NCBI RefSeq assembly: GCF_000143685.1 | Contig: NC_014328.1 | Coordinates: 3,100,001-3,164,000, forward strand | Length of the DNA: 64,000 nucleotides | DNA from: Clostridium ljungdahlii DSM 13528 | Lineage (GTDB): Bacteria > Bacillota > Clostridia > Clostridiales > Clostridiaceae | Reading direction: 5' to 3' | Part shown: positions 9,094-25,483 of the stretch, piece after piece | Layout: each line of letters begins with the position of its first letter | Position numbering within the stretch: the first letter of the stretch is position 1 | Notes under the pieces: model-generated | Database searches by the model: none | Seen by the model: the letters and a program-made list of their open reading frames with translations, nothing else | Told to the model about the DNA's origin: nothing | Made by a program: the position numbers and the translations under genes

Positions 9094-9178
9094 ATTATCA
9101 TACCTTTGCATTTATCATTCAATGTTCATTTGCACAAAAATAATTTATTACTAGTAAACTATTTTATATATATGCATA
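9094..9178 (-). promoter_or_regulatory. garR promoter with putative CdaR box
   Basis: On the minus strand: TATGCATA (9171-9178), 34 bases, the imperfect palindrome TGTGCAAATGAACA (9136-9123), then directly TTGAAT as -35 (9122-9117), a 17-base spacer, and GATAAT as -10 (9099-9094). The same arrangement recurs at seven other island promoters. Confidence 0.75.
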
Positions 9179-9216
9179 ACATTTTACAATCTACTATTTT
9201 GTCATCAAGTCAATTA

Positions 9217-10740
9217 TCATGTAATTGGTGCAGGATTAAAAATTGATAATGCATTATAAATTCCATGTACATCTGCATAAGTTTTTTTAGTTCCACTAGC
9301 TATATCTATTATCAATTTAAAAAGTTCTAAACCAACCTCTTCAATTGTCTTTTCACCTGTGGCAATTCTTCCTGCATCTAGATCTATTAAATCATTCCAT
9401 TTTTCTTTAAGTGCTGTATTAGTTGAAACTTTTATAACAGGGGCAATCATTAAATTATATGTAGTACCTCTTCCAGTAGTAAACACTTGTAAAGTCATAC
9501 CTGATGATAACTGCATTGTCCCACAAACAAAATCGCTTGCTGGTGTTGCAGCATAGGTCATACCTCTTTTTCTAATACGCTCTCCTGGAGATAATACATC
9601 CACTATGCTTGTACTACCTGATTTAGCTACCGATCCAAGTGCTTTATCTACAACATTTAAAAGGCCACCTTTTTTATTTCCTGGTGAAGGGTTTGCATCT
9701 CTATCAACATGTGATTCGTCCAAATATTTATCATACCATTTCATTTCCTTAACAAGTTTCGCAAGTACTTCATCACTAACTGTTCTAGGTGCCAGCAAAT
9801 GAACTGCATCTCTAATTTCAGTCACTTCAGAAAACATTACCTTTGCACCTGATCTAACTAATAAATCTGCTGCAAATCCTACTGCTGGGTTTGCCGTAAC
9901 TCCTGAAAAAGCATCACTTCCACCGCACTGAAGTCCAACTACTAAATCAGATACAGGACATTTGGTTCTAACTCTTGAATTTAACTTTTTAAGTTTTTTT
10001 TCTGCTCTTTTCATAATTTCATCAATCATTTTATTAAATCCAAAACATTCCTGTAGTATTACAAGATTTTCATCTTTTATTTCAGGAAAAAGTAATGTAG
10101 GTACTAATTTTTCGCATCCAAGAGATACTGTCAGCATTTCACCACCAAAATTAGGATTCTGGGATAAATTTCTTATTGCCCTTATAGGAATTTCAGAATT
10201 ATCACCATGTATTGCAACACCACATCCATATAGATGATTCAAAGCCACAACAGCATCAACATTTTTATACTTAGGTAAAAGCTCATTTTTGATTCTCTCT
10301 ACTGCAACATTGACAACACCTTGTACACATTGAACTGTTGTAGTTATTCCAAGTATATTTTTAGTTCCAACGCTGCCATCTTCATTTTTATATCCCATAA
10401 ATGTGTAACCTTGTAAAGGTTCATATTTATCAATCATTTTACCGCTTTTTAATTCATTTAATGAATGTGCCTTAGGTAGTCTAACTTCATCGTGTGCTAC
10501 CCGACTTCCCTTTTTTAAATTTTTTTTTGCAAATCCAATTATTTCTCCATACCTAATAAAAGGTTCATCCTTTGAAATATCTTTTAAAAGCACTTTATTA
10601 GCTTGCGGTATATCCTGCAGCAATTTCAATCCATTTTCAAAAGTAATTCCCTTTTTAAGTCCATCTTTGTTTACTATTATAGCTACATTGTCTTCAGGGT
10701 TAACTTTAATATACAAAGGTTTTAATTGATTACTATCCAT
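9217..10740 (-). CDS. garD: Galactarate dehydratase (UxaA/GarD family)
   Basis: This 507-residue protein has an N-terminal SAF-type domain (about residues 8-90) followed by the UxaA/GarD catalytic region with the conserved segments [28 protein letters not shown] and [11 protein letters not shown]. GarD dehydrates meso-galactarate to 5-keto-4-deoxyglucarate with an iron cofactor. The related altronate dehydratase UxaA shares the fold, but single-chain fusion length and glucarate-pathway neighbours favour GarD. It follows garK after 31 bases with a GGAGG site and no promoter box between, so it is probably the second gene of a garK-garD operon. Confidence 0.88.
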
Positions 10741-10771
10741 TTAACTTTAACCTCCTTATATGTGATTTTAA

Positions 10772-11914
10772 CTATTTTACATTCATTAATCTTACTATAT
10801 TTTCAACTGTTTTCTCTATATTTTCACTGCCTTTTTTTAGAGCACAGTCTAATGTGGTCACACCTCTAACAATACTAAAAATTGAATCTATACCCTTTTC
10901 ATATAATACATCTATACCATTTTCAACACTACCTGCCAGTGCTACTACAGGCTTATTATATTTTTTTGCTATCATAGCTACTCCAATTGGAGTTTTTCCA
11001 TATTGTGTTTGGAAATCTATACTACCTTCACCGGTAAAAACTATATCTGCTTGCTTAATTTTTTCTTCCAACTTAGAATATTCTATAACTATATCAATAC
11101 CATTTTTAAGTTCTCCTTTTAAGAAAACCATAAGTCCAGCTCCTAATCCACCAGCCGCACCTGCTCCAGGTATGTTTAGTACATCTACATTAATTTGCTC
11201 CTTAATTATCTTAGCATAATGCTTTAAGTTATCATCCAATACTTTAATCATTTCGGGAGTAGCTCCTTTTTGTGGTCCAAAGATATTAGAAGCCCCTTCT
11301 TTTCCACAAAGAGGATTAGTAACATCGCAAGCTACTTCTAATTTAACATTCTTCAAACGAACATCAAAATTTGTTAAATCAATTTTTTCTATTTTACTTA
11401 ACTCACCACCGCCAAATCCAATTTCCTTTCCATATCTGTTCGTAAATTTTCCTCCTAGAGCTTGAATTGCACCTACACCACCATCATTAGTAGAGCTTCC
11501 CCCTATGCCAACTAACAATTTTTTTATATTGTGGTTTAAACACTCTCTTATTAATTGTCCTGTTCCGTAAGTTGTTGTTATGAGCGGATTTCTTTTTTCT
11601 TTTGGCACCAAACCTATTCCGCTTGCGCTAGCCATTTCTATAATACCTGTTTCGCCGTCTCCTAAAATACCATATTCAGCTTCTACTTCATCTCCAAGTG
11701 GTCCAATTACTTTTAATTTATATATATATCCTCCTGTAGCATCAACAAGAGATTGCATTGTTCCCTCTCCCCCGTCAGCCATAGGCACTTGTATACATTT
11801 AATATTTTTATTTACTCTTTTTATTCCTTTTTCCATAGCTTCACAAGCTTCTTTTGCAGTCATACTCTCTTTGAAGGAATCTGGTGCCAGCAAAATACTA
11901 AAATCCTTTTTCAT
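10772..11914 (-). CDS. garK: Glycerate kinase
   Basis: This is a 380-residue type I glycerate kinase. It opens with LLAPDSFKESMTAKEA (substrate and ATP region), followed by MADGGEGT, GGSSTNDGGVG, the glycine-rich GAGAAGGLGAG and FTGEGSIDFQTQYGK. It phosphorylates D-glycerate to 2-phosphoglycerate in this family, delivering carbon from galactarate/glucarate into lower glycolysis. The ribosome site is GGAGGG with 7 bases to the ATG. It is the first gene of the operon with garD and has the shared promoter element at 12039-12124. Confidence 0.92.
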   Translation of the reverse strand: MKKDFSILLAPDSFKESMTAKEACEAMEKGIKRVNKNIKCIQVPMADGGEGTMQSLVDATGGYIYKLKVIGPLGDEVEAEYGILGDGETGIIEMASASGIGLVPKEKRNPLITTTYGTGQLIRECLNHNIKKLLVGIGGSSTNDGGVGAIQALGGKFTNRYGKEIGFGGGELSKIEKIDLTNFDVRLKNVKLEVACDVTNPLCGKEGASNIFGPQKGATPEMIKVLDDNLKHYAKIIKEQINVDVLNIPGAGAAGGLGAGLMVFLKGELKNGIDIVIEYSKLEEKIKQADIVFTGEGSIDFQTQYGKTPIGVAMIAKKYNKPVVALAGSVENGIDVLYEKGIDSIFSIVRGVTTLDCALKKGSENIEKTVENIVRLMNVK

Positions 11915-12038
11915 GTTTAAACCCTCCTGTTGCCTAAAATCTATTCAAGAACTTAGCTTTTCTAATATATCTAAATTCTATATTAAAGTTAGATGTTTCT
12001 ATTAAAAGCGTTTACTGTTCATCATCTATTTCTATTTT

Positions 12039-12124
12039 ATTATTGTACTTTTTTACAAGTGAAACAATATTCAGTTGCACAAATATCATTTGTCTTTAAT
12101 ATTTTCTTTTTATCTATTTGCATA
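12039..12124 (-). promoter_or_regulatory. garK-garD promoter with putative CdaR box
   Basis: On the minus strand: TATGCAAA (12124-12117), 35 bases, TGTGCAACTGAATA (12081-12068), then TTGTTT as -35 (12067-12062), a 17-base spacer and AATAAT as -10 (12044-12039). The geometry equals that of garR, although both core hexamers are weaker. Confidence 0.68.
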
Positions 12125-12157
12125 ACTTATTTTTGATCCTACTTCTTATATATAAAA

Positions 12158-12191
12158 TAGGATTTGGCATTGAATTTAGTGTCAAATCCTA
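12158..12191 (-). terminator. Terminator after gudP
   Basis: TAGGATTTG (12158-12166) pairs with CAAATCCTA (12183-12191). On the minus strand the second arm is followed by TTTTATAT. It lies 24 bases beyond the gudP stop, separating gudP from the garK-garD operon. Confidence 0.8.
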
Positions 12192-12214
12192 TACTGCAAT
12201 AAAAGTTTTTATTG

Positions 12215-13570
12215 TTACTTAACAACTTTCACATTTTCGCTTACATGAAACTTTTTACTTAAATCAACAGGTTCTACCTTATCTACTATAAACAGGAAAG
12301 CCAAAGCTCCAACAACAGCAACTGCAGAAGTATAATCCATAGCCAAATGAAAATTACCAGTTTTTTGATGCAAAACTCCAAAAATTATTGGACTAACTAT
12401 ACCAGATAAATTTCCACAAAGATTAAGTACACCTCCAACTCTACCTATCATACTTTTAGGTAAGACATCACTTAGAGCTACCCATCCTAAGTTAGAAGCT
12501 GCATTTGCGAAAAATGCAATTGATAAAATAATTACAGCTACAATAGGTGTCTTTTCAAAGAAATTTGCTAAACATAGAATGGATGTAAAAAGTAAGCCTG
12601 CAACTATTGGTATTTTACGAGCTACAGTCAATGATGTTTTTTTCAATAAATAATCACTTAAAAATCCTCCAAATAGAACTCCTGCCATGGCCATCATATA
12701 AGGTAATATTGCCATAAATCCTGCTTTTTGTATTGGTAATTTCAATCCTTTTTGAAGGTAAACTATAAACCATGTCATAAAAAAATATAAAGTAGATGCT
12801 ATAGCAAATTGTGTAATAAATATTCCCCACACTCTTCTTTGCTTTATTACATATAAAATTTCATCTAATGAAATCTTATCTTCCTTTTTTTCTCCAATTT
12901 CATTAGGATTGTAAGCACCATTATTTTTAAGATAATCTAATTCCTCTTGATTTATGCTTTTACTGTCTTTAGGATCTCTGTATACAGCCAACCATATGAT
13001 ACCAAAAACGATTGCAATTCCACCAGAAAGATAAAATACTGATTCCCAACTTATTTTAGCAACCATCATAGCCAATATAGGAGTAAATACTGCTAATCCT
13101 ATGTATTGTGCAGATGAATAAATGCTTATTGCCCTAGCCCTTTCATTACTTGGAAACCAAAGTGCTGCTATTTTTGTATTGCTCGGAAAGGCAGGTCCTT
13201 CAGCTATTCCAATTAATATTCTACAAACTATAAGTACCATAAATGAAGCACCAATACCTGCAAACAATCCCTGAGAACTAAATGCCATAATAAATGTGAA
13301 AAATCCCCATAATACCATAGCTCCACCATATAAGAATCTTGCCCCAATTTTATCTAATATCATTCCAACTGGTATTTGAACTATAACATAAGACCACGTG
13401 AATGCCGAAAATAAAACTCCTAACTGGGTAGAATTTATTTTCAGCTGTTTTTGAATTGCAGTACCTGCAACTGATAAATTAGCTCTATCAAGATATGTTA
13501 TTGCAACAGCCACAAAAAGCATTAGCAATATCAAAAAACGTACTTTTGTAGGTTTCTTTTCCATATACAT
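12215..13570 (-). CDS. gudP: MFS glucarate/galactarate transporter
   Basis: This 451-residue major facilitator has 12 predicted membrane helices. The N-terminal pattern RFLILLMLFVAVAITYLDRANLSVAG is typical of the anion:cation symporter branch that contains GudP and GarP. A DKIGARFLYGG loop follows helix 2 and a SIYSSAQYIGLAV segment lies in helix 5. It should import D-glucarate and/or galactarate with protons. It is flanked by a private CdaR-type promoter and terminators on both sides. Start: ATG at 13570 with GGAGG nine bases upstream; an ATG two codons later is equally readable. Confidence 0.9.
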   Translation of the reverse strand: MYMEKKPTKVRFLILLMLFVAVAITYLDRANLSVAGTAIQKQLKINSTQLGVLFSAFTWSYVIVQIPVGMILDKIGARFLYGGAMVLWGFFTFIMAFSSQGLFAGIGASFMVLIVCRILIGIAEGPAFPSNTKIAALWFPSNERARAISIYSSAQYIGLAVFTPILAMMVAKISWESVFYLSGGIAIVFGIIWLAVYRDPKDSKSINQEELDYLKNNGAYNPNEIGEKKEDKISLDEILYVIKQRRVWGIFITQFAIASTLYFFMTWFIVYLQKGLKLPIQKAGFMAILPYMMAMAGVLFGGFLSDYLLKKTSLTVARKIPIVAGLLFTSILCLANFFEKTPIVAVIILSIAFFANAASNLGWVALSDVLPKSMIGRVGGVLNLCGNLSGIVSPIIFGVLHQKTGNFHLAMDYTSAVAVVGALAFLFIVDKVEPVDLSKKFHVSENVKVVK

Positions 13571-13662
13571 ATTTTCATTCCTCCACGATTATTTAATAAA
13601 TAACTTATTATTTACCTAGGTTACTTTAATGCCTTAAGACTTTTATAAATGTTTACAAGTTT

Positions 13663-13748
13663 ATTATCATATTTTTCGACATTTCATTCAATGTTCAGCT
13701 GCACAAACTTAAATCGTTATCATGGGCATTTTTTCATCTATATGCATA
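13663..13748 (-). promoter_or_regulatory. gudP promoter with putative CdaR box
   Basis: On the minus strand: TATGCATA (13748-13741), 35 bases that include TGATAACGATTT, the palindrome TGTGCAGCTGAACA (13705-13692), -35 TTGAAT (13691-13686), a 17-base spacer and -10 GATAAT (13668-13663). The palindrome arms differ at one position. Confidence 0.78.
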
Positions 13749-13780
13749 ACTTATTTTTGATTTAAATATGCATATATAAA

Positions 13781-13822
13781 TTTAGGACTATTACACTAAA
13801 TAGCTAGTGCAACAGTCCTAAA
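13781..13822 (-). terminator. Terminator after the first gudD
   Basis: TTTAGGACT with further pairing (ACTA/TAGT) faces AGTCCTAAA across a short loop. On the minus strand an A/T-rich tail follows. It begins 13 bases after the gudD stop. Confidence 0.72.
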
Positions 13823-13834
13823 CGAAAGCATATT

Positions 13835-15184
13835 TTATCTTACTAAACAAGGACGTTTATTATTAAACTTCCAACCTGGAATCAGAAATTGCATAGCAAC
13901 TGAATCATCACGTGCCCCTAATGACATTTTTGTATATAATTCATTAGCTTTCTTGACTTGTTCCATATCTATCTCTACACCCAAGCCTGGTTTGTCTGGA
14001 ATATCTATCATACCACCTACAATTTTAAATGGATCTTTAGTCAAATACTGACCATCCTGCCATATCCAGTGTGTATCAATTGCAGTTACATTTCCTGGGG
14101 CTGCGGCTGCTGTTTGAGCATACATTGCAAGTGAAATATCAAAATGATTATTTGAATGTGAACCCCAAGTAAGTCCAAAATCTCTACAAGTTTGTGCTAC
14201 TCGCACTGAACCTTCCATCGTCCAAAAATGTGGATCAGCTAATGGAATATCTACTGAATGCAGCTGAAGAGAATGTACCATCTGTCTCCAGTCCGTTGCA
14301 ATCATATTAGTAGCAGTAGGCAAATCAACAGCTCTCCTAAATTCAGCCATGACCTCACGCCCTGAAAAACCATTTTCAGCTCCACAAGGATCTTCGGCAT
14401 AAGCCAAAACGCCTTTTATGTTTTTGCACAACTTTATAGCTTCATCTAATGACCATGATCCATTTGGATCAAGAGTTATACGAGCATCTGGAAAACGTTT
14501 AGCCAAAGCTGTTACAGCTTCTATTTCCTTTTCTCCACTTAAAACTCCGCCTTTCAATTTAAAATCTTTGAATCCATAGCGTTCCTGTGCAGCTTCTCCA
14601 AGTCTTACAACAGCTTCTGGAGTCATTGCTTCTTCAATACGCAATCGTGACCAATCATCCTTTGAATCAGGTTCACTTACATAAGGTAAATTTGTTTTTC
14701 TCCTATCACCTACAAAGAATAAATATCCCAAAACTTTAACTGATTTTCTCTGCTGACCTTCACCCAATAATTGGCAGGCTGGTACATTAAGAAATTTTCC
14801 CATTAAATCAAGTAATGCTGCTTCTATTGCAGTAGCTGCATGTATAGTAGTACGCAAATCAAATGTCTGGAGTCCACGTCCACCAGCATCTCTAGATGAA
14901 AAAGTTTCTTTTACATTTCTAATTATTGATTTATATTTTCCAATACTTTGTCCCACAACTAACGACTTTGAATCCTCTATTGTCTTACGTATAGCTTCGC
15001 CTCCTGGTACTTCTCCAACACCAGTACTTCCTGCATTATCCTTTAAAATTACAATATTACGTGTAAAAAAAGGTCCGTGTGCTCCACTTAAATTAAATAA
15101 CATACTATCATGTCCTGCTACAGGAATAACTTGCATGTCAGTAACAACAGGTGTATTCTTTATCATATTTTTATTGTCATTCAT
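13835..15184 (-). CDS. gudD: Glucarate dehydratase, copy 1
   Basis: This 449-residue enolase-superfamily enzyme carries the catalytic signatures of GudD: the KxK motif in FKLKGG, metal ligands in LDPNGSW and YAEDPCG, and the general base region [12 protein letters not shown]. It dehydrates D-glucarate (and usually L-idarate) to 5-keto-4-deoxyglucarate with Mg2+. All catalytic segments are intact. It has its own CdaR-type promoter (15250-15335) and terminator. A paralogue lies at 18568-19914; the two are clearly homologous along their length but diverge throughout, so this is not a recent duplication. Either could serve another diacid such as an idarate isomer. Confidence 0.93.
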
Positions 15185-15249
15185 ATTCTAACCTCCATAA
15201 TAACGTTTTCCTTTGTTTTTCAATAAAACTTATATTACTTTATAATATA

Positions 15250-15335
15250 ATTATTATACTTTAAAATTTTCTATTCAATGTTCAATTGCACATATATTAA
15301 TCTTTAACGTCAACTTATTTTTATAGATATGCATA
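15250..15335 (-). promoter_or_regulatory. gudD copy 1 promoter with putative CdaR box
   Basis: On the minus strand: TATGCATA (15335-15328), 35 bases, TGTGCAATTGAACA (15292-15279), -35 TTGAAT (15278-15273), a 17-base spacer and -10 AATAAT (15255-15250). Its palindrome is identical to the one in front of the divergent aldolase gene. Confidence 0.78.
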
Positions 15336-15373
15336 ATACCCTTCAAGCTGCAATTAAATTACAGATAAACCTT

Positions 15374-16663
15374 TTACCACAAGTTTCCTTCTTCATTAAA
15401 TTTCATATACTCCGGTTCACTTTCCACTTCTAGATCAGGATAGTTTTTCATTTCATCATAGTAGGCCTCTGATAACATAATATGACCAATATGTAAACTG
15501 TTAGGTATTCTTACTACCTTTGACGCCTTTTTATTAACTCCCACACATGTTCTAATACAAAGCTGTATAGCTTCTTTATCATTTGCCACAACACAGGGTA
15601 TCCTTGCAGATTCCAGTACTGTACTTGTAATACAATTAGGATACATTTTTTCTAAATCCAATTTATCAAACAGTCTTTTTGTTATAACATTTGAAAGTCC
15701 TACACCTAAACCATTTCCATGAGATTCTTTACTTATATCAAGCATTGCCGTTCTCTGTACTTTTACACCACCTGATGCATATTTTGTAGAAAATGTTCCT
15801 GTAATATTAGGATCCACACCTGTTCCGCTATAATTTTTCCCTATTTCATCAACAACAAGTACATCACATCTTCCAACTATAATCTTAGGCATATTAGCAA
15901 AAGCCTCTTGTAATAACTTCGGCTCTTCTTCTGCAATTTCATCGCTGTTAACTGCTATTATCTTACATGTCTCATCAAAAGCATTTTCTATACACGGTAT
16001 GGCAAAGAGAATTGGTGCATGTTTAATAATTGCATTTCCTATAATAGGTATATTCTTTGCAATATTTTGCATTCCTTGTTCATGAACATGCTCTGCTCCA
16101 GCTTGCTTACCTAAACCAACTGCCATCATTTTCATAATTCCACTTTCGTATTTACCTCTAAAGGCATTATGAGGTTTAATACGACATGAAATTATAATAC
16201 CATCAGCTTATGCAGCATTTTTATCTATTACCACTTCTCTTCCATCCTCTGTATGTCCTATCATTTTGACTTCCATAGAAGATTTAATTGGGCATCCCAA
16301 ATACTCTTCTGTAAGACCATAACCTGCTAATAATTCGAGTTGTCCTTCAGCAGTTGCTCCACCATGACTACCCATTGCAGGAACAACAAATGGATTTGCT
16401 CCTTTAGATGTTACAAAATCTACTATAGATTTTGTTATAATAGCTACATTAGCAACACCTCTGCTGCCAGCTGTAATAGCAATATTCATTCCCGGTTTAA
16501 TCTTATCAGAAAATTTCTTTTGTGCTAATTCTTTTTTTACTACTTCAGGTATATTTTTTGATTCAATAATAGGTCGTGGGAAGATCTGCCTTACCTTAAA
16601 CATCTTTGGGATATATACATTTTCCAGCAACTTAGATACTACTCCACCTTTTTTTATTTCCAT
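15374..16663 (-). pseudogene. LarA-like DUF2088 protein interrupted by an in-frame TAA
   Basis: One continuous frame of 430 codons is broken only by TAA at 16210-16208 (codon 152, in DKNAA*ADGIIIS). The first open part covers 16208-16663 and a second starts at ATG 16135. The protein resembles the DUF2088/LarA nickel-pincer racemase family: GSHGGAT (His100) before the stop, KPHNAF (His165) in the stretch between the stop and the next ATG, and GLGKQAGAEHVHEQG (Lys186, His192, His194) after it. By analogy with LarA these are likely cofactor ligands, so neither fragment alone should be active. Start ATG with GGAGAG. Sequencing error, recent nonsense mutation or readthrough are all possible. The role in sugar-diacid metabolism is unknown. 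Confidence 0.8.
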
Positions 16664-16699
16664 ATTAGCTCTCCTTTTCTATTTCATTCATCATATTAA

Positions 16700-16729
16700 T
16701 ATATATTTTTTAGATATGGTTTTTGTCAA
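16700..16729 (-). promoter_or_regulatory. Promoter of the LarA-like gene, without CdaR box
   Basis: A consensus -35 TTGACA (16729-16724) is followed after 17-18 bases by TATATA/ATATAT. Unlike the other island promoters it lacks the TGTGCA palindrome, so this gene may be expressed independently of CdaR. Confidence 0.55.
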
Positions 16730-16784
16730 TTTTACACTAATCAGCAGTAGAACTCTTCTTTTATAAGGAAATGTAATATATAAT

Positions 16785-16818
16785 TTAAAAGGCATCTGGT
16801 GAATCAGATACCTTTTAA
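16785..16818 (-). terminator. Terminator after gntP-family gene
   Basis: AAAAGG-ATCTG arms (AAAAGGCATCTG facing CAGATACCTTTT) surround a six-base loop right after the permease stop codon at 16824. The T-run is short, so termination may be partial. Confidence 0.65.
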
Positions 16819-16823
16819 ATTGA

Positions 16824-18149
16824 CTAATGTACAAAAATATTTAATATTAAAACACCAATTAAACCAATAACAGAAAGAATACACGTATAACTTGTCCTAG
16901 TTTTTATTGCATCTGCCACTGATAGTCCAAAGTACTCTTTATACATCCAAAATCCAGGATCGTTTACATGAGATGCAAATATACTTCCTGTAGTAACTGC
17001 AAGTACCATTAAACTAGTATTAACTCCTGATGAAGCTGCCAGCGGCATTACTAATCCTGCTGCAGCTGTTACCGCTACAGTAGCTGATCCAAGTGCTGTT
17101 CTCAAAATTGCTGCAATAAACCATGCCAATACTATTGGTGAAAAATTTAATCCTTTCGTTATAGAAACAATTGTATTTCCTACTCCAGAATCAACTAATA
17201 CCTGTTTAAAAGCTCCTCCTGCACCAATTATAAGAATAATCATTGCAATGGCTTTTACAGATTCACTCATACTTTTCGTTATATCGTCTAAACTTCTATT
17301 GCATCCAAATCCAAAAGTAAACATTGCAATAATTACTGTAATCATCAATGCTATAGGTGCATCTCCAAAGAACTTAATGTATTTTAAAAGTGAAGATCCT
17401 TTAGGAAGAAACATTCCACTAAATTCGGAAATAGCTATTAAAATTACAGGTACAATTGCTGTAAATAAGCTTTTTCCAAAACTAGGCATTTCCTCATCCG
17501 TAAACAACTTACTTGTAGTTAAACCTTCTGGTATATGCGTCTTAGCATTTTTTACAATACTTGTTTTTGAAAATAAAATTCCTGCTATTATAGCCCCTGG
17601 AATTGCAAGAATTAGTCCTAAAAGAAGTGTTCCTCCTACACTAGCTTTAAACGCAGAAGCTACAAGGGTTGGACCAGGATGAGGTGGTAAAAAACTGTGT
17701 GTTACTGATAATGCAACAACAGCTGGAAATCCAACATAGATTAAAGGTAACTTTGTTTCCTTAACTATACTATAAATAATTGGTATTAATAAAATGAATG
17801 CTGCTTCAAAAAACATTGTGATTCCTACAATAATTGATGTTACCAGCATAGCCCATTGAACTCTTTTCATTCCAAACTTATTAATCAAGGTAGTGGCAAT
17901 ACGCTGTCCAGCTCCACAATCTGACATAAGTTTACCAAGCATTGCTCCAAATGCAAGTATAAGTATTAAACTATTCAGCTGGCCTCCAATACCCTTATAC
18001 ATAGATTTAGTAACATTTCCTAACGGCATTCCTTCAAGAACACCAACTACCAACGAAACCAATATCAAAGAAATAAATCCATTAAGTTTACAAGGTATCA
18101 TCAATACCAAAAGTAGTATTACTCCAATACCAACTATAACTAATGACAT
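16824..18149 (-). CDS. GntP-family organic acid:H+ symporter
   Basis: This hydrophobic 441-residue protein has about 12-14 membrane segments and the family marks LILAFGAMLGKLMSDCGAGQRIA near residue 65 and HSFLPPHPGPTLVASAF near residue 155. GntP permeases import gluconate and related sugar acids or glycerate. The start is ATG 18149 (SLVIVGIG next) because AAGGAGGAG lies six bases upstream; the longer frame to 18170 would include that site. Its promoter carries the shared CdaR-type element, so a sugar diacid or glycerate is a reasonable substrate; exact specificity cannot be read. Confidence 0.87.
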   Translation of the reverse strand: MSLVIVGIGVILLLVLMIPCKLNGFISLILVSLVVGVLEGMPLGNVTKSMYKGIGGQLNSLILILAFGAMLGKLMSDCGAGQRIATTLINKFGMKRVQWAMLVTSIIVGITMFFEAAFILLIPIIYSIVKETKLPLIYVGFPAVVALSVTHSFLPPHPGPTLVASAFKASVGGTLLLGLILAIPGAIIAGILFSKTSIVKNAKTHIPEGLTTSKLFTDEEMPSFGKSLFTAIVPVILIAISEFSGMFLPKGSSLLKYIKFFGDAPIALMITVIIAMFTFGFGCNRSLDDITKSMSESVKAIAMIILIIGAGGAFKQVLVDSGVGNTIVSITKGLNFSPIVLAWFIAAILRTALGSATVAVTAAAGLVMPLAASSGVNTSLMVLAVTTGSIFASHVNDPGFWMYKEYFGLSVADAIKTRTSYTCILSVIGLIGVLILNIFVH

Positions 18150-18296
18150 GTAAAACTCCTCCTTAATCATGTTTTATCAAATTATTTTATTGCAAACATT
18201 TACTTTACTTTTAATACAACCTTGGACTAATCATATGATATACTGAAATACTTAAAATTGAGTACTATAGAACTCTTATAAATACTTTGTAGTTTT

Positions 18297-18382
18297 ATTA
18301 TCATATTTTTCTATATTACCTTCAATATTCACCTGCACAAATTTTAATCGTTATCATAGTCATTTTTTCATCTATATGCATA
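18297..18382 (-). promoter_or_regulatory. gntP-family promoter with putative CdaR box
   Basis: On the minus strand: TATGCATA (18382-18375), 35 bases with TGATAACGATT, TGTGCAGGTGAATA (18339-18326), -35 TTGAAG (18325-18320), a 17-base spacer and -10 GATAAT (18302-18297). The rest of the 18150-18567 gap holds the gudD copy 2 terminator and A/T-rich sequence. Confidence 0.76.
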
Positions 18383-18486
18383 AATATTTTTTTAGAAAAT
18401 TTTAATTTTTCTCTGAATATCCCATTAAAAAAACATATACTATATTGCATTAATTCTTTTATTTTTACTATATAAAAGATTAAGAA

Positions 18487-18550
18487 AAAGAGCTGTATTA
18501 GTATAAAATATCCTTAACAAAGGCTTCATTTTATACTAATACAACTCTTT
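18487..18550 (-). terminator. Terminator after the second gudD
   Basis: Long arms AAAGAG-TGTATTAGTATAAAAT and ATTTTATACTAATACA-CTCTTT enclose about 18 bases. The hairpin lies 18 bases past the gudD copy 2 stop and is followed by a T-rich tail on the minus strand. Confidence 0.82.
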
Positions 18551-18567
18551 CTCTATATATTTATAAT

Positions 18568-19914
18568 TTACCTTACCATACATGGTTTTTTACTATCAAA
18601 TTTCCAATTCTTTATTAAATACTGCATGGATATAGAATCATCTCTATCCCCACAACTCATCTTAGTGTATAATTCATTAGCTTTCATAACCTTGTCCATG
18701 TCAACCTCCAAACCAAGCCCCGGCTTTTTAGGAAGTTCTATCAACCCATTAGATATTTTATATGGAGTCTTAGTTAAGTATTGTCCATCCTGCCAAATCC
18801 AATGAGTATCCATTGATGTAATTTCTCCTGGGGCTGCGGCAGCAACTTGAGTGAACACTGCTAATGATATATCAAAGTGATTATTTGAATGTGACCCCCA
18901 AGTATATCCCCATTCATTACATATTTGCGCCGCACGTACTGCACCATTCATTGTCCAAAAATGAGGGTCTGCTAAAATTATGTCAAGTGAATTTAATGAA
19001 AGGCAATGACCAAACTGACGCCAATCTGTTGCTATCATATTTGTTGCTACTCTTAGTCCTGTAGCTCTCTTAAACTCAGTCATAATCTCTCTTCCTGAAA
19101 AACCTTTTTCTGGTCCACAAGGATCTTCAGCATAGGATAAAGCTGTACCAGCATCCTTGCAAAGCCTTATAGCTTCTTCTAAAGACCATGCCCCATTAGG
19201 ATCTATATTGACATTAGCATCTGGAAATTCTTTAGCTAAAGCTTTTATAGTTTCTATCTCCTTTTCTCCTTCAAATACCCCTCCTTTTAATTTAAAATCT
19301 TTTACCCCATAACGTTCTCTTACTGCATGAGCCTCTTCGATAATATCTTCTACAGTTACCATTCTCTTTCTTCTTATTTTAAACCATTGGTCCTTGCTAT
19401 TGCTTTCATCAATATATGATAAATTCGTTTTATTTTTATCTTCTACGTAAAATAAATAACCCAGCATCCTCACAGCATCTCTTTGCTTGCCATCTCCAAG
19501 TAAAGATGCTACTGGAAGATCCATATATTGTCCTAATAAATCCAGTAATGCAGATTCAACAGCAGTTTCAGCATGAACTACAAAACACAAGTTTTTTAAA
19601 TCAAGTTCTTGAATACCTTCTCCATTATTTTGATCTGCACCCCAAGTCTTATTTTTTAATTCATATATTATACCCTTATAATCACCTATATATTTGCCTA
19701 TAACAAATGGCTTATAATTTTCCAAAGCCTTCCTAATATGCTCTCCTCCATGTATTTCACCAAGCCCTGTATTACCTGAATTATCTTTTATAATAACTAT
19801 ATTTCTTGTAAAAAATGGTGCATGAGCTCCACTTAATGTTAATGACATACTATCATATCCTGCTACTGGAATAACCTTCATATCTGTTACAATAGGTGTA
19901 CCTTTACTAATCAT
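18568..19914 (-). CDS. Glucarate dehydratase paralogue, copy 2
   Basis: This 448-residue enolase-superfamily dehydratase is collinear with the gudD at 13835-15184. The catalytic segments are kept: FKLKGG, IDPNGAW, YAEDPCG and [12 protein letters not shown]. The most divergent stretches are around residues 85-110 and 150-190 ([16 protein letters not shown] here), including the loop region that shapes the active-site cap, so substrate preference may differ. It has its own CdaR-type promoter (19964-20049), GGAGGAG ribosome site and terminator. Glucarate, idarate or another hexarate are possible substrates. A GudX-like non-catalytic paralogue exists in other bacteria, but here the catalytic residues are present. 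Confidence 0.88.
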
Positions 19915-19963
19915 ATTAAGTCTCCTCCAAATTCTGTATTTCTATAAAATATAACTCATTTAC

Positions 19964-20049
19964 ATTATCATATTTTTTTATTTTTCCTTCAATGTTCATC
20001 TGAATAAATTTCAATCGTTATCATAACTACTTTTTTATATATATGCATA
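19964..20049 (-). promoter_or_regulatory. gudD copy 2 promoter with putative CdaR box
   Basis: On the minus strand: TATGCATA (20049-20042), 35 bases with TGATAACGATTGAA, TATTCAGATGAACA (20006-19993), -35 TTGAAG (19992-19987), a 17-base spacer and -10 GATAAT (19969-19964). Confidence 0.75.
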
Positions 20050-20144
20050 AATGTTTTCCTGCTATTATCACAAGTGCAGATAATAAGGTATTTCATTTGG
20101 ATAAATGCTGATTATACGAGTACCTCCTGTTAATGACTCTAAAC

Positions 20145-20594
20145 TTACCACATAGATTGCATACTGTTCCAAATTAGCCTTTTATCCTCTTCACCACATT
20201 TTATTTTACTGGAAATATATTCACCAATAATACTTAAATTTTTCTCTGTAGCACCTAATTGTATATCTCTTAATATAGTCGGCAAATTAATAGATCGTAA
20301 AAGACTTTTATATTGCTCAATATCAGCATTCGGACATCTATTAATTTTCATCTGAAGAGATAACCCTAAAGAAACTAATTCTCCATGAAAAACCTTAGCT
20401 TGTTGTTCTTTAAAAAATTTAGTTATGCAATTATAAAAATAATGTGCAATTGCCAACTGATTTCCGCTATTAGCTAGGGATGATGCCATACCAGTTAGTT
20501 TTCCAAATTGTTTGACTTCTCTTCCAACAGCTTCAAGTCCACCAGAAGTTTGAATGTATTTACTGATAAGTCCAATACTATTCTCCTTACACAT
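20145..20594 (-). CDS. Half-length Fe-type alcohol dehydrogenase-like protein
   Basis: The 149 residues match only the C-terminal all-helical metal-binding half of iron-containing alcohol/glycerol dehydrogenases. Two histidines sit in the usual contexts, LAIAHYFYN and VFHGELVSLGL. The nucleotide-binding N-terminal half (about 170-200 residues) is absent. Despite this, the gene begins cleanly at ATG 20594 with GGAGG seven bases upstream, shows no internal stops, and has its own CdaR-type promoter. It is therefore either a truncated relic that still carries expression signals or a free-standing domain protein. Dehydrogenase activity is unlikely without the NAD domain. I do not know its role. 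Confidence 0.65.
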   Translation of the reverse strand: MCKENSIGLISKYIQTSGGLEAVGREVKQFGKLTGMASSLANSGNQLAIAHYFYNCITKFFKEQQAKVFHGELVSLGLSLQMKINRCPNADIEQYKSLLRSINLPTILRDIQLGATEKNLSIIGEYISSKIKCGEEDKRLIWNSMQSMW

Positions 20595-20625
20595 TCTAAT
20601 ACCTCCTCTACTCTCTTCCAATATA

Positions 20626-20710
20626 ATCATCATATTTTTTTAAAGTAATATCAATATTCAATTGCATAAATAGTTATAGCTATCACTTCTTGTTTTTATG
20701 TAATTGCATA
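20626..20710 (-). promoter_or_regulatory. Promoter of the half-ADH gene with putative CdaR box
   Basis: On the minus strand: TATGCAAT (20710-20703), 34 bases, TATGCAATTGAATA (20668-20655), -35 TTGATA (20654-20649), a 17-base spacer and -10 GATGAT (20631-20626). It is the weakest member of the set, but its spacing is unchanged. Confidence 0.65.
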
Positions 20711-20774
20711 GTGCCTTATTTAAAAATATATGATTTCTCATAGCAGAGGTTTAGAACTTAAAAAACTTTATATC

Positions 20775-22223
20775 TTAATATATTCCAATCAATTTCCACC
20801 ACAACATTCCAATTCCAATGATAATTAAAAGATGTGCTATTGAAACACAAAAACCTACAAACCACCATTTCTTTTGCTTAACATATCCTTCTGAAAAATA
20901 AACTCCTCCTTGTGCTAATCCATAATGAGTAAGTCCAGAACTTAAAGCTGATATGTTAACTAATAAAAACATAGATACTATTGTTGGAGCTCCAGCACTT
21001 AGTAATATAGTTAAAAAGGCTGAAAATAGGGCAGTAAAGTGTACTGTATTGCTTGCAAACAAGTAATGCAAATAATACATTATAATACATACTATAATTA
21101 GTGTAAGCATCCATGATTTTGTATATATGTGGTCTCTTACTATACTACTTATCCATTTAATCACTCCCAATTTGTTTAATTGACCTGCCATCATCATAAA
21201 TGCTCCTAGCCATATGAGTAAATTCCATATTTCTTTTTTGCCAGTAAATTCTTCCCAAGACACAATTCCTGTAGAAATCAGTATTATGAGCCCTAAGACT
21301 CCTACAGTTGTAACATCTAAATTTATCTTATTACCAATGATCCAAAGGAAAACTACTATTGCAAATACAAAAATCATTAGTTTCTCTGATTTACTTATAG
21401 GTCCTAATTCTTCTAATTTTTTATCCATCAATTCTTTAACATTGTCCATCTTTTTTATTTCTGGAGGACATAAAAAATAAATGATTATAGGTATAACTAT
21501 AAAAGCTACCAATGATGGGAGTAATGCCATTAAAAACCACATGCCAAAAGTTATATTTTCTTTTACTCCCAAATCTCTAGCCATAGTAATTGCTAGTAAA
21601 TTTACAACCGAAGATGTCATAAATAGAGAAGATGAAATAAGATTACTATGTAGTGCCGTAAGCATTAAAAATTCTCCCGCTTTTTTCTCAGTTCCATCTC
21701 CAACTTTTGATCCATAAGCTCTTGACAAAGATTTTGCAATAGGAAATACTATTCCACAAGACCTAGAAGCAGAACTTGGAATTAACATAGACAATATAAT
21801 TTCACATATAACCAAAGAATATCCTGCACCTATGGTTCTCTTACCTATCTTCTTAATAAGATTATAGGCAATCCTTTTGCCAAGTCCTGTTTTAGTTATC
21901 CCTATGGAAAGGCAATCAGCACATACAATCAGCCAAATAACTCCTTCTGCATAGGACGAAAATGCTGTTTTTACTGTAATAATGTGTGTGCAAGTTAAAA
22001 TAAATATGCCTATAAAGGATGCTAGTCCAAGTGATACAGCACCTAAAGCACAGGCAACTATAATAGCAATAAACACTGCCAAGAGGTACCATCCATTTCT
22101 AGGTACCATATTGGGTTTAGGTATAAAACAAATTATTACTCCAATTAAAATTGATATTAGTAAAGGTTTTAATTTAACTGAAGAATTAAATTTAATTGCC
22201 TTGAAATTTAAACTATTTACCAT
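20775..22223 (-). CDS. DASS (SLC13) family dicarboxylate/anion:Na+ symporter
   Basis: This 482-residue transporter has about 12 hydrophobic segments. The hairpin region near residue 150 reads SMLIPSSASRSCGIVFPIAKSL, and the second repeat contains WNLLIWLGAFMMMAG, both typical of the CitT/TtdT branch of DASS carriers. These carry citrate, tartrate, succinate and similar organic anions by symport or exchange. The location in a sugar-diacid island suggests tartrate-like or diacid transport, but no CdaR box is found. It lies 59 bases after speE, with an 18-bp hairpin between, and a GGGGAGGAT ribosome site. Confidence 0.85.
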   Translation of the reverse strand: MVNSLNFKAIKFNSSVKLKPLLISILIGVIICFIPKPNMVPRNGWYLLAVFIAIIVACALGAVSLGLASFIGIFILTCTHIITVKTAFSSYAEGVIWLIVCADCLSIGITKTGLGKRIAYNLIKKIGKRTIGAGYSLVICEIILSMLIPSSASRSCGIVFPIAKSLSRAYGSKVGDGTEKKAGEFLMLTALHSNLISSSLFMTSSVVNLLAITMARDLGVKENITFGMWFLMALLPSLVAFIVIPIIIYFLCPPEIKKMDNVKELMDKKLEELGPISKSEKLMIFVFAIVVFLWIIGNKINLDVTTVGVLGLIILISTGIVSWEEFTGKKEIWNLLIWLGAFMMMAGQLNKLGVIKWISSIVRDHIYTKSWMLTLIIVCIIMYYLHYLFASNTVHFTALFSAFLTILLSAGAPTIVSMFLLVNISALSSGLTHYGLAQGGVYFSEGYVKQKKWWFVGFCVSIAHLLIIIGIGMLWWKLIGIY

Positions 22224-22236
22224 ATAATCCTCCCCA

Positions 22237-22276
22237 AATAAATTTAGCTAACATAACAATGTTAGCTAAATTTATT
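22237..22276 (-). other. Perfect 18-bp hairpin between speE and the DASS gene
   Basis: AATAAATTTAGCTAACAT and its exact complement enclose a 4-base loop. The hairpin starts just after the speE stop and ends immediately before the GGGGAGG ribosome site of the transporter gene. On the minus strand ATTTGGGG follows instead of a T-run, so it may act in mRNA processing, partial termination or translational coupling rather than as a simple terminator. Confidence 0.7.
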
Positions 22277-22282
22277 ATTTCT

Positions 22283-23155
22283 TTATTTTAAATCACTTAT
22301 GAAATTTGGAAGGTCAAAACAGGACTTTACAATTTGTTTTGTTAAATAACGGGTATTTAAAGGCAATCTATCTACATCTATATTGCAAGGATCATAGACA
22401 TCTGATGCCATTGTAAAGCTCCACAATCCTCCAGGATAAGTAGGAACAAAAGCTACATATGTTTTTACAATTTTAAAATTATCCTTTAATATTTTTCTCG
22501 TACTTTCAATTATATCACGATGCAGCATTGGAGATTCACTTTGACATACCATTACTCCGTCAGAATTTAATGTTTTTTTCACATTTTTATAAAATTCTTC
22601 TCCAAATAAATCTTTGGCAGGTCCCTCTGGATCTGGTGAATCAACTACTATTACATCATATTTAATATCTGTGTTTTTTACATATTGAACTCCATCTCCA
22701 AATTTGAAATTCACCCTTTTATCAAAATTTGCTCCTCCACTTATCTTTGGAAGAAACTTTATACATTCTCTTGTTACTATTTCATCCAACTCAACCATAT
22801 CAATTGTTTTAAGTTCTTCATACTTTGAAAGTTCACGCACTGCCCCACAATCTCCTCCACCAATTACCAAAACCTTTTCTGGTTTTTTATGTGTAAGTAC
22901 TGGAATATGAGTTATCATCTCATTATATATAAACCCATCTGCAGAAGTGGACTGCATTATTCCATCTAGTGCAAGACATGGTCCAAATGCCGCAGTGTCA
23001 ATCAAAGCTATCTCTTGATAGGGGGATTTCAAATAAGAAAGTACCTTGTTAACTTTATAAGTGATCTTTAAATTTTTTTTCTCAACCTCAAACTCCTCAA
23101 ACCACAGTTCGCCATCAACTTCTTTGAAATACTTTGGTAATTGATTTATTTTCAT
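22283..23155 (-). CDS. speE: Spermidine synthase (polyamine aminopropyltransferase)
   Basis: This 290-residue protein has a short N-terminal beta domain (residues 1-70, ending LDGIMQSTSADGFIYNEM) and a methyltransferase-like catalytic core. Key motifs are VIGGGDCGAVRE (decarboxylated SAM binding, near residue 97), the acidic VELDE, and VVDSPDPEGPAKDLF near residue 170 with the catalytic Asp. It transfers an aminopropyl group to putrescine. The ribosome site is GGAGGG. speE usually sits beside speD or speH; here it stands alone among sugar-diacid genes and its transcript may continue into the DASS transporter. Confidence 0.93.
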   Translation of the reverse strand: MKINQLPKYFKEVDGELWFEEFEVEKKNLKITYKVNKVLSYLKSPYQEIALIDTAAFGPCLALDGIMQSTSADGFIYNEMITHIPVLTHKKPEKVLVIGGGDCGAVRELSKYEELKTIDMVELDEIVTRECIKFLPKISGGANFDKRVNFKFGDGVQYVKNTDIKYDVIVVDSPDPEGPAKDLFGEEFYKNVKKTLNSDGVMVCQSESPMLHRDIIESTRKILKDNFKIVKTYVAFVPTYPGGLWSFTMASDVYDPCNIDVDRLPLNTRYLTKQIVKSCFDLPNFISDLK

Positions 23156-23262
23156 AATACTCCCTCCGTTATGATAAATATTTATATATCTAATAAAGTT
23201 TTACTCGATTAATTATAACTAAAACGAAGATGTATTTCAAAGATTAACCCAAATAAAAATTT

Positions 23263-24162
23263 TTAAAGTACATCCAAAGTTACTTTCCTAGTAGGCTTTG
23301 GAAATATCCTGTCAAGTTCAATTAAATCTTCTTTAGATAAAACAATTGATCCAGATCTTGCATTTTCTATTACGTGTTCCTCACAGGAAGCTTTAGGAAT
23401 TGCAATCACATCCTTTGTCCTTATGCTCCAGGCCAAAAGTATCTGTAATGGCTTTGCATTATATTTTTTCGCCATATTTATTAAAATAGGATCATCTAAT
23501 AACTGTCTTCTCAGTTTACCGCCTTTGGCAATTGGACAATACGCCATAATTGGCATGTTGTGCTTTCTCTGCCATGGCAGTAAATCAAATTCAATTCCTC
23601 TTGATCCCAGGTGATATAATACCTGATTAACCATACAATTTTCTCCATCTTTACAACTTAAAAATTCTTTCATATCTTCTGTATCTAGATTTGATACTCC
23701 CCATCTCAATATCTTTCCCTGCTTTTTCAATTTTTCCATGCCTTTTATCGTTTCTTCAAAAGGCACACTTCCTCTCCAATGCAAAAGATATAAATCTAAA
23801 TGATCTGTATTCAATCTTCTTAAACTATTTTCACAAGCAGTAACTATATTTGAAAGTCCTGCATTGTGTGGATATACTTTAGATACAATAAATAGCTTGT
23901 CTCTAATGCCCTTTATTGCCTTACCTACTAAAACTTCAGAACCACCATCTCCATACATTTCTGCCGTATCTATAAGTGTCATTCCAAGCTTTATTCCCAT
24001 TCTAAGAGTTTCTATCTCACTTTTTTTCGTTTGTGAATTTTCACCTAGATACCATGTGCCTTGTCCTAATGCTGGTACTAAAGCTCCATCTGGCAATTTT
24101 ACCAGTCTTTTTTGATTTATGTTTCTAATTTGTTCTATCTCTTCATCACTTATTAAACTCAA
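23263..24162 (-). CDS. Aldo/keto reductase
   Basis: A 300-residue NADPH-dependent TIM-barrel oxidoreductase with the catalytic tetrad visible: Asp and Tyr in DTAEMYGDGGSE, Lys in FIVSKVYP, His in YLLHWRG. The cofactor-binding C-terminal stretch IAIPKASCEEHVIENARS is also present. I place the start at TTG 24162 (SLISDEEIEQ next) with AAAGGGA upstream; the longer frame to ATG 24252 would overlap cdaR by 56 bases and adds a hydrophobic stretch foreign to the family. It may reduce a sugar-acid-derived aldehyde or keto group, but substrate is unknown. It follows cdaR by 34 bases and may share its transcript. Confidence 0.85.
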   Translation of the reverse strand: MSLISDEEIEQIRNINQKRLVKLPDGALVPALGQGTWYLGENSQTKKSEIETLRMGIKLGMTLIDTAEMYGDGGSEVLVGKAIKGIRDKLFIVSKVYPHNAGLSNIVTACENSLRRLNTDHLDLYLLHWRGSVPFEETIKGMEKLKKQGKILRWGVSNLDTEDMKEFLSCKDGENCMVNQVLYHLGSRGIEFDLLPWQRKHNMPIMAYCPIAKGGKLRRQLLDDPILINMAKKYNAKPLQILLAWSIRTKDVIAIPKASCEEHVIENARSGSIVLSKEDLIELDRIFPKPTRKVTLDVL

Positions 24163-24196
24163 AATATCAATCCCTTTCTTTGCATAATTATAACCA

Positions 24197-25348
24197 CTAA
24201 TTTTTATTAGTTTCAAAATTAATAATAGAGCAGTACAGCCAAAATAAATCAATATAATTTTTAGGATTCATATTAGTAATCTTATATATTTTGTTAAGAC
24301 GATAATTAAGGGTATTTCTATGTATAAATAATTTATTTGATACTTTATTTAACTCTCCATTTTCTTCTATGAAAACTTTTAGTGTTTCTCTTAATTCACC
24401 ATTCTTATCATTTAGTTCAATTAGTCCATAAGAATCCTTTAATTCATTGATCTTCCATTGTGCATTATCCTGAAACAATAACATTTCGTACTTCATTACA
24501 TCAAAAATGTACACGTTATTATCAGGATGGCTTTTTTCTCCAAACAAAAGTGTTTCTCTGGCTATTTCATAGGATTTATGTATATCACTTAATTTAGTAT
24601 ATACCTTTCCAACAGATATTTTTACATCAGTATTAGTTTGATTTTGTATTTTCTCATAAATCCCATCTATTCTATCCTTACAAGTTATAGCCTTATATTT
24701 TATATTTGGACACTTATATAATAAAACAATAGTCTTTGAGTCAATAACTGCTACTAATGATTCTTTAAGAGTACCCTCTAAAATTGACACTATATTTTTT
24801 AATATATCCAAATCTTTTCTATTTGAAATCTGCTTAAAATTAACCTGTATAATAAAAATAGTCATAGGATAATTAGAAGCTATTTTAAATTTTTTAGTAT
24901 ACTTTTCAAGCAAACGAAATGATCCCTGATCATTTTTAATAAGTGAAAGTATCATATCCTCTTTAACCCTGTTACTCCATTCAAGTTCCTTCATAACATA
25001 AGCTTGTTCTATTATCATTTCTGCAGTCATTTTGATAAGCTTACCATATCCTATAACCTCATCTCTTTTTCCAGTAATACCTATTACTCCTACAATTTCA
25101 TGTTCAAATTCAATAACTATATTTGTACCCTGTTCTACTCCATTTAACTTTCTACATTGATTTTCATCAATACTGAATTCAGATTTTCTTCCAATTGCAA
25201 GAACTGCACCCTCATGAACGCTTCCAATTCTATCTTTATTACCAGATGCTATTATAATACCCTGTTTATTCATTATATTAATATTTTTATTCACCGCTTT
25301 CATAGTTCTATCCACTATTTCTTCAGCCAATTTGGTGCTAATGTCCAT
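24197..25348 (-). CDS. cdaR: Sugar diacid regulator (CdaR family)
   Basis: This 383-residue regulator has an N-terminal sugar-diacid recognition domain (residues 1-135, containing IIIASGNKDRIGSVHEGA and VIGITGKRDEVIGYGKLIK), a middle cyclase-like domain, and a C-terminal PucR-type helix-turn-helix (NKLFIHRNTLNYRLNKIYKITN, about residues 345-366). In Escherichia coli CdaR activates garD, garPLRK and gudPXD when glucarate, galactarate or glycerate is present. Here it lies at the edge of the island, divergent from the aldolase gene, and eight island promoters share a box that is its likely target. The ribosome site is GGGGGAAG. A TGTGCACA half-like site near 25399-25406 in its own upstream region suggests autoregulation. 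Confidence 0.92.
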   Translation of the reverse strand: MDISTKLAEEIVDRTMKAVNKNINIMNKQGIIIASGNKDRIGSVHEGAVLAIGRKSEFSIDENQCRKLNGVEQGTNIVIEFEHEIVGVIGITGKRDEVIGYGKLIKMTAEMIIEQAYVMKELEWSNRVKEDMILSLIKNDQGSFRLLEKYTKKFKIASNYPMTIFIIQVNFKQISNRKDLDILKNIVSILEGTLKESLVAVIDSKTIVLLYKCPNIKYKAITCKDRIDGIYEKIQNQTNTDVKISVGKVYTKLSDIHKSYEIARETLLFGEKSHPDNNVYIFDVMKYEMLLFQDNAQWKINELKDSYGLIELNDKNGELRETLKVFIEENGELNKVSNKLFIHRNTLNYRLNKIYKITNMNPKNYIDLFWLYCSIINFETNKN

Positions 25349-25398
25349 TAATCTTCCCCCTGACTATATAATAAGAGTAAATCTTATTCTGCTACAAT

Positions 25399-25483
25399 GT
25401 GCACATAAATAAAAAGCTTTAACTGATAACGATTAATATTTGTGCAATTGAACATTGCTATATACTCCGATAAATACGATAAT
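25399..25483 (+). promoter_or_regulatory. Aldolase promoter with putative CdaR box (divergent region)
   Basis: On the plus strand: TGTGCACA (25399-25406), 34 bases with TGATAACGATTAA, the palindrome TGTGCAATTGAACA (25441-25454), -35 TTGCTA (25455-25460), a 17-base spacer and -10 GATAAT (25478-25483). The left palindrome also lies in the leader of the divergent cdaR gene, where it could serve both genes. Confidence 0.78.

Follow-up and report, generated by a model that had tools for sequence, protein, structure and literature searches.

A paired-box promoter arrangement in a diacid gene cluster of Clostridium ljungdahlii and its probable regulator, CdaR

Does a cluster of diacid genes with many separate promoters answer to a single regulator, and if so, through which DNA site? 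The question arises in a 64,000-nucleotide stretch of Clostridium ljungdahlii DSM 13528 (hereafter the window; positions 3,100,001-3,164,000 of a single 4,630,065-bp contig), where eight promoters had been singled out from the sequence alone as the likely regulon of CdaR, a regulator encoded in the same cluster. The specificity of their shared motif for this cluster and its co-occurrence with cdaR, both described below, support that proposal, and these eight promoters, perhaps together with that of cdaR itself, would be direct CdaR targets.

In all eight promoters, a 14-bp box of the form TRTKCA-N2-TGAAYA abuts the -35 hexamer and is followed by a 17-bp spacer and a GATAAT-like -10 hexamer (GATAAT in five, AATAAT in two and GATGAT in one), exactly as first described. 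A second, distal box is found upstream in every case. When the promoters are aligned on the TGCA of the proximal box, the distal TGCA lies 43 bp upstream in six and 42 bp upstream in two (garR and the half-length alcohol dehydrogenase [ADH] gene); these start-to-start distances equal the 34-35 bases of the sequence-only reading, which counted from the end of a distal 8-mer. The promoters and the regulator gene are as follows, where "cre-like" marks an element resembling a catabolite-responsive element (cre) and "distance" is that between box starts in bp.

9094..9178, minus strand: garR promoter; distal box 9165-9178, proximal box 9123-9136, -35 9117-9122, -10 9094-9099; distance 42
12039..12124, minus strand: garK-garD promoter; distal box 12111-12124, proximal box 12068-12081, -10 12039-12044; distance 43
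13663..13748, minus strand: promoter of the gudP-like MFS transporter gene; distal box 13735-13748, cre-like element 13712-13722, proximal box 13692-13705, -10 13663-13668; distance 43
15250..15335, minus strand: gudD copy 1 promoter; distal box 15322-15335, proximal box 15279-15292, -10 15250-15255; distance 43
18297..18382, minus strand: gntP-family promoter; distal box 18369-18382, cre-like element 18346-18356, proximal box 18326-18339, -10 18297-18302; distance 43
19964..20049, minus strand: gudD copy 2 promoter; distal box 20036-20049, cre-like element 20013-20023, proximal box 19993-20006 (first half TATTCA), -10 19964-19969; distance 43
20626..20710, minus strand: truncated-ADH promoter; distal box 20697-20710, proximal box 20655-20668, -10 (GATGAT) 20626-20631; distance 42
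25398..25483, plus strand: DapA-family aldolase promoter; distal box 25398-25411, cre-like element 25424-25434, proximal box 25441-25454, -10 25478-25483; distance 43
24197..25348, minus strand: cdaR, with Diacid_rec, GGDEF-like and PucR-type helix-turn-helix (HTH) domains; putative activator

The distal element had been taken for a separate palindrome present in all eight promoters. The second box does occur in all eight, but its 8-mer, which is TATGCATA in five promoters and TGTGCACA in that of the aldolase, is not palindromic in the remaining two (TATGCAAA at garK and TATGCAAT at the half-ADH gene). We dropped TATGCATA as a palindrome of its own because the distal element aligns better as a 14-bp box of the proximal kind, with T.TGCA..T..A.A in common, and both elements appear to be better read as one kind of 14-bp pseudo-palindrome. 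Alternatively, the proximal box alone could be the CdaR site, with TATGCATA and its A-tract acting as curved or UP-like DNA or as the site of another protein. The distal consensus does differ from the proximal one and is followed by an A-tract, and Escherichia coli gudP and cdaR lack a second box at our threshold. This explanation nevertheless seems unlikely to us, given the positions shared by the two boxes, the TGTGCACA of the aldolase distal box, and the fact that the distal site is the stronger palindrome at distant CdaR homologs and at E. coli garP.

Within the genome, the motif is specific to the cluster. The single-box composite occurs six times exactly and twice with one mismatch in 4.63 Mb, and these matches are the eight cluster promoters. 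Allowing two mismatches adds one match outside the cluster. With three allowed, the total rises to 44, against 37 for the reversed pattern, so that nothing above background is gained. A genome-wide promoter element could therefore be rejected, as all matches with at most one mismatch lie in the diacid cluster, and the composite was not found scattered in front of unrelated genes.

The motif also follows the regulator. A CdaR ortholog (70-100% identity) is present in six of the 13 genomes of the genus, and exact composites were found in all six (6, 1, 4, 4, 4 and 4; 23 in total) and in none of the seven genomes without cdaR. With up to two mismatches, these seven yield 15 matches versus 10 for the control. 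The only candidate for a motif retained without cdaR was a single one-mismatch, single-box match in G002, which we took as chance because G002 has no two-box match. We then scanned 206 genomes of the family Clostridiaceae, 56 of which encode a CdaR homolog at E 1e-30 (14 of them with at least 58% identity), using a two-box pattern that requires no -10 and leaves the gap free between 24 and 38 (15 allowed values). It returned 46 matches. Of these, 42 fell in ortholog genomes, 13 of the 14 being represented, and the other four in four of the remaining 192 genomes; the reversed pattern returned none. The pattern misses the gudD copy 2 promoter (TATTCA), so that seven of the eight window promoters are counted, and it misses G042, whose two promoters differ by one base. 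The four outside matches look like strays: their gaps are 24, 27, 29 and 32, and their 3-kb loci contain no CdaR relative. A class-wide search for close CdaR orthologs (E 1e-60) found two among 391 genomes, both previously found. The shared motif thus precedes gar and gud genes and accompanies cdaR, the exceptions being the targets in one genus (g6) and an interrupted cdaR in G108.

Although 15 gap values were allowed, the 42 matches use three: 37 (23 matches), 36 (11) and 26 (8). Gaps of 36 and 37 place the box starts 42 and 43 bp apart, or four helical turns, and a gap of 26 places them 32 bp apart, or three turns; all 42 distances are therefore 32, 42 or 43 bp, forming two spacing classes with one switch in the ortholog clade. 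A phase score for the spacings was not used, because its weights are rough and any two close pairs of distances separated by 10-11 would score well. The 42-43-bp form occurs in three genera, while among these matches the 32-bp form is confined to genus g6 (G086, G089, G090, G091 and G093); one degenerate site in G108, with three mismatches, also stands at 32.

Target genes differ between the two groups. Outside g6 they are garR, garK, gntP, gudP, gudD, ADH, aldo-keto reductase and aldolase genes. In g6, a gene for a 391-aa protein of the cyclopropane-fatty-acid-synthase (cfa) type follows six of the eight sites (three of the proteins were scanned, and the other three are 93-98% identical to one of them), and in two loci, L115 and L119, an LrgB-type gene lies directly downstream of it. 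The site in L143 is followed by an LrgA-type gene, and one G086 site precedes a 143-aa open reading frame (ORF) without known family. In G089, G090 and G091, cdaR and the cfa-type gene diverge from the region that holds the boxes, and no gar or gud gene was matched in the g6 stretches (17.5-19.5 kb). The expectation that the motif would stand only before diacid genes thus holds in the C. ljungdahlii genome at up to one mismatch and fails in g6. In these loci (L115-L119, L127 and L143), a diacid-type regulator would have membrane-lipid (cfa) genes among its targets.

Co-occurrence cannot by itself separate CdaR from its neighbours, and the boxes might be sites of a different regulator that accompanies the cluster; the boxes kept in G108 despite its interrupted cdaR would fit such a scenario. 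In a 15-kb stretch of G001, however, the boxes are kept while only cdaR and garK match window proteins; cdaR is the sole such match in the g6 stretches, and distant homologs in other phyla share both box and spacing. We consider another regulator very improbable.

At least four of the six bases of TATAAT are found at spacer 17 in 41 of the 42 two-box matches, and at least five in 37. TATGAT at spacer 14 is an alternative -10 compatible with the sequence (at least four of six in 42, at least five in 29), and it scores nearly as well because the sequence is TATGATAAT. The site abuts the -35 at a fixed register, in agreement with the class II activator position suggested at the outset. Class II activator promoters of the CRP type have their activator site centred near -42. 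The Clostridium promoters are alike in this respect and differ in adding a like site three or four turns away.

We think it likely that CdaR binds both boxes on one face of the helix and activates from the site near -43. A CdaR dimer on the proximal pseudo-palindrome would contact polymerase at the -35, in the manner of class II activation, while a second dimer of the same oligomer would hold the distal box four turns upstream on the same DNA face, making occupancy cooperative; in g6, the distal box would sit one helical turn nearer. We infer binding, bridging, activation and a response to an inducer from these arrangements, and the oligomer specifically by analogy with GabR of Corynebacterium glutamicum, a PucR-family activator that forms an octamer and binds two inverted repeats in its target region far better than one (PMC7652997). 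GabR differs from CdaR in lacking a GGDEF-like domain and in using a different, 21-bp repeat. CdaR might instead repress these promoters and be released by diacids, as a box at the -35 edge could block polymerase and Shewanella SdaR is annotated as a non-activator in RegPrecise, according to PMC5443562. The same paper also reports fitness data favouring activation, however, E. coli CdaR is called an activator in PMC7652997, and the fixed class II position suits activation, which together make repression quite improbable.

A parallel is offered by E. coli K-12, whose CdaR (SdaR) regulon (garPLRK, garD, gudPXD and cdaR) combines the same regulator family with the same pathway genes. The arrangement of box, -35, 17-bp spacer and -10 was found at all three of garP, gudP and cdaR. 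At garP, TGTGCATATGCTCA is followed 42 bp on by TTAGCATTTGCACA against ATGATT, 17 bp and TATACT; at cdaR, TAGGCATTTGCACA stands before ATGCCG, 17 bp and TATGCT; and at gudP, TGTGTTGTTGCACG stands before GTGAGC, 17 bp and TATACT. With these thresholds, a background of 100 kb of K-12, read on both strands, gave two composites, and no pair of boxes 25-49 bp apart was found there; the count is post hoc, as the thresholds were set after the promoters had been read. The E. coli and Clostridium systems are thus alike in the box against the -35, the spacer, the -10 and, at garP, the 42-bp pair. They differ in the stronger half-site, which is beside the -35 in E. coli and upstream in Clostridium, and in the many single promoters, the DapA-family aldolase and the cre-like elements of Clostridium; for E. 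coli cdaR, binding of Crp-cAMP has been reported (PMC6390033).

More distant homologs extend the comparison. In 16 family loci (L096-L111) whose CdaR has 31-38% identity, a TGTKCA-N2-TGMACA-type palindrome is present in 12, and in 11 of these it lies in the interval that separates cdaR from its neighbour or at the end of cdaR itself. Thirteen loci were measured for a -10 (L096, L100 and L111 being left out), and 12 have a -10-like hexamer at a box distance of 32 or 33, three of them with no other candidate. A free-gap pattern drawn up after these loci had been seen (palindrome, 26-52 bp with 27 values, WTG, 20 bp, TAYAAT) gave eight matches in the 206 genomes and none for the control. Seven adjoin a distant cdaR at gaps of 32 (five) or 33 (two), which here equal box starts 32-33 bp apart, and one stray stands at 29; five of the seven are loci already seen when the pattern was drawn up. 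In 391 class genomes, the pattern found G019 again and one match without CdaR (G561, gap 32), with one for the reversed control; the G561 match has no CdaR relative in its 3-kb locus and was taken as chance. In the five cases scanned, the neighbour of the distant cdaR gene encodes a 412-423-aa protein, two of which gave weak GntP-type matches below cut-off, and a glycerate kinase gene adjoins cdaR in two loci.

Plasmid loci came from eight of the 40 plasmid records found. Those of Mesobacillus and Niallia have a 43-bp box distance with TACAAT, where the chance of a five-of-six -10 at one of four favoured distances is 0.082 and 0.046, respectively. Plesiomonas (L159) shows 43 bp and Vibrio campbellii (L164) 42 bp, both with weak -10s (four of six), the latter measured with the expected distance in hand. 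The palindrome is present in the Pseudomonas locus (L163), with no clear -35 or -10 at the expected distance.

Several observations weigh against CdaR acting through a conserved pair of boxes. The window CdaR falls short of the equivalog cut-off of PRK11477, the E. coli-type CdaR (272.7 versus 612 bits), and G108 has six promoters though both of its cdaR copies are interrupted in that assembly. The two-box, free-gap and E. coli patterns were all designed after some of their promoters had been seen, and a clear change from one turn number to the other, three against four, is seen only once in the ortholog clade. At E. coli gudP and cdaR, no upstream partner box scores above threshold, and no clean promoter was found in the E. 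coli garD direction. The Azospirillum, Aeromonas and V. tritonius loci have no clear palindrome beside cdaR, and no box was found in the 170 bp before cdaR in G042, G025, G086, G093 and G108. The G108 copies lie in tandem (L113 13669-16019); the first is broken across two frames, and an in-frame stop interrupts the second. This could be recent decay, an assembly fault or a point against CdaR.

Between the boxes, several promoters had been said to carry a further element, and TGATAACGATT does occur at one fixed offset in four of the eight (gudP, gntP, gudD copy 2 and aldolase); the genome holds five exact copies, four of them here. These promoters match the C. acetobutylicum CRE consensus WTGWAAACGWTWWCAW (PMC3507653) at 12-14 of 16 positions (13 for gudD copy 2, a value with no shuffle figure), and promoters without TGATAACGATT reach 9-13. 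A cre site for CcpA is plausible rather than shown because C. difficile CcpA uses a different motif (PMC3510511). Were it one, CcpA docking at this element would switch off the promoters of some operons while a preferred sugar is available. That the element is instead a third contact, or is bound by some other factor, is a serious if less favoured possibility, given the modest match, per-promoter shuffle p values of 0.02-0.46, a best CRE match lying elsewhere in two promoters and presence in half of the eight. Weighing in favour of cre, the variants of relatives at the same offset (TGAAAACGATT, TGAAAACGGTT and, in some g6 promoters, TTAACGTTTAA) keep the AACG core.

A broader generalisation, to which we would give a little less than an even chance, is that one ancestral rule runs from Firmicutes to Proteobacteria. 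Two TGTGCA-N2-TGCACA boxes would be bridged in helical phase by one oligomer, with the near box welded to the -35 and the far box three or four turns off; a CcpA site inside the bridge would make an AND-NOT gate, and one clostridial genus would carry a one-turn-shorter module on cfa and LrgA/B genes.

The aldolase distal box may serve a second direction, as it abuts a possible promoter of cdaR found by eye.

25368..25411, minus strand: possible cdaR promoter (weak, putative); aldolase distal box, TTGTAG 25392-25397 and, 18 bp on, TATTAT 25368-25373

The same two boxes could then serve both aldolase and cdaR. In G001, cdaR still has the box pair upstream, even though no aldolase gene follows and the aldolase-side -10 is gone, as would be expected if cdaR itself used the pair, and E. 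coli CdaR is called auto-regulating in PMC4551912. Autoregulation is only a suggestion here because the cdaR-side sequence of the pair varies among relatives and the five relatives named above have no box before cdaR. A degenerate 42-bp box pair was also observed before the small gene right after cdaR in G005, G010 and G001 (L083 16154, L084 19375 and L082 4808); in G005, this gene encodes a PCC-domain protein.

Parts of this picture were known. An SdaR site has been predicted in Shewanella, before grtP-garK (PMC2996990, PMC3223726), and is said to be conserved at E. coli targets (PMC3223726), and SdaR regulons are listed in Lactobacillaceae (PMC3616900); the descriptions compared give no spacing rule or second box. 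The CdaR binding site was stated to be undetermined in 2020 (PMC7652997). In searches of the open literature, we recognised no two-box spacing rule for CdaR/SdaR or PucR-family sites. The suggestion that the rule is undescribed in Clostridium is thus uncontradicted there, and it is narrowed by the sites and regulons predicted in those other groups; this regulon appears to be new and its spacing rule unreported. The rule would give a regulator that already serves in a glucarate biosensor (PMC4551912) an exact, testable site and spacing, and in the genomes searched here it finds CdaR targets with few false matches. Three versus four helical turns would amount to a natural spacing experiment on activation by PucR-type oligomers, and in one genus regulator and promoter grammar stayed while the target genes differ.

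As to the regulator itself, the diacid domain of CdaR is N-terminal, followed by the GGDEF-like domain and a C-terminal PucR-type HTH (PF05651 at 4.8e-46, PF17853 at 4.9e-9 and PF13556 at 9e-16). It is a member of the CdaR/SdaR family, without NCBI equivalog status to E. coli CdaR. The C-terminal HTH residues are kept between Clostridium and E. coli, and the protein is 98% identical in Clostridium ragsdalei P11 and C. ljungdahlii ERI-2. The cluster further comprises garR, garD, garK, the MFS transporter, two gudD-type dehydratases, a split LarA-type gene, a GntP-family permease, the truncated ADH, a DASS transporter, speE and an aldo-keto reductase; the DapA-family protein, encoded divergently from cdaR, is treated here as the aldolase. 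Against the glucarate dehydratase model, the gudD-type proteins score 837 and 705 bits, the second below the cut-off of 829.

The gudP, gntP and gudD copy 2 promoters are alike also between the motif parts (69-88%), while the flanks are unlike in all pairs and most other promoter pairs share little outside the motif positions. These three may have arisen as promoter duplicates.

The LarA-type nickel-pincer isomerase (group 22; 15374-16663) is split into two ORFs, the upstream one stopping at an in-frame TAA, and the G010 cluster (L084 10566-11855) has a 429-aa ORF with 80% identity to the C-terminal piece. The garD gene is in two ORFs in G006 (L086 4959-6178) and absent from an 18-kb stretch of G008 (L087), and neither gntP nor the LarA-type gene was seen in the G006 stretch or in that of G008; the diacid pathway seems to be eroding among close relatives. 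The truncated ADH of the window (20145-20633) lacks about 209 internal residues relative to the 372-aa G006 protein, and it retains its CdaR-type promoter despite this loss.

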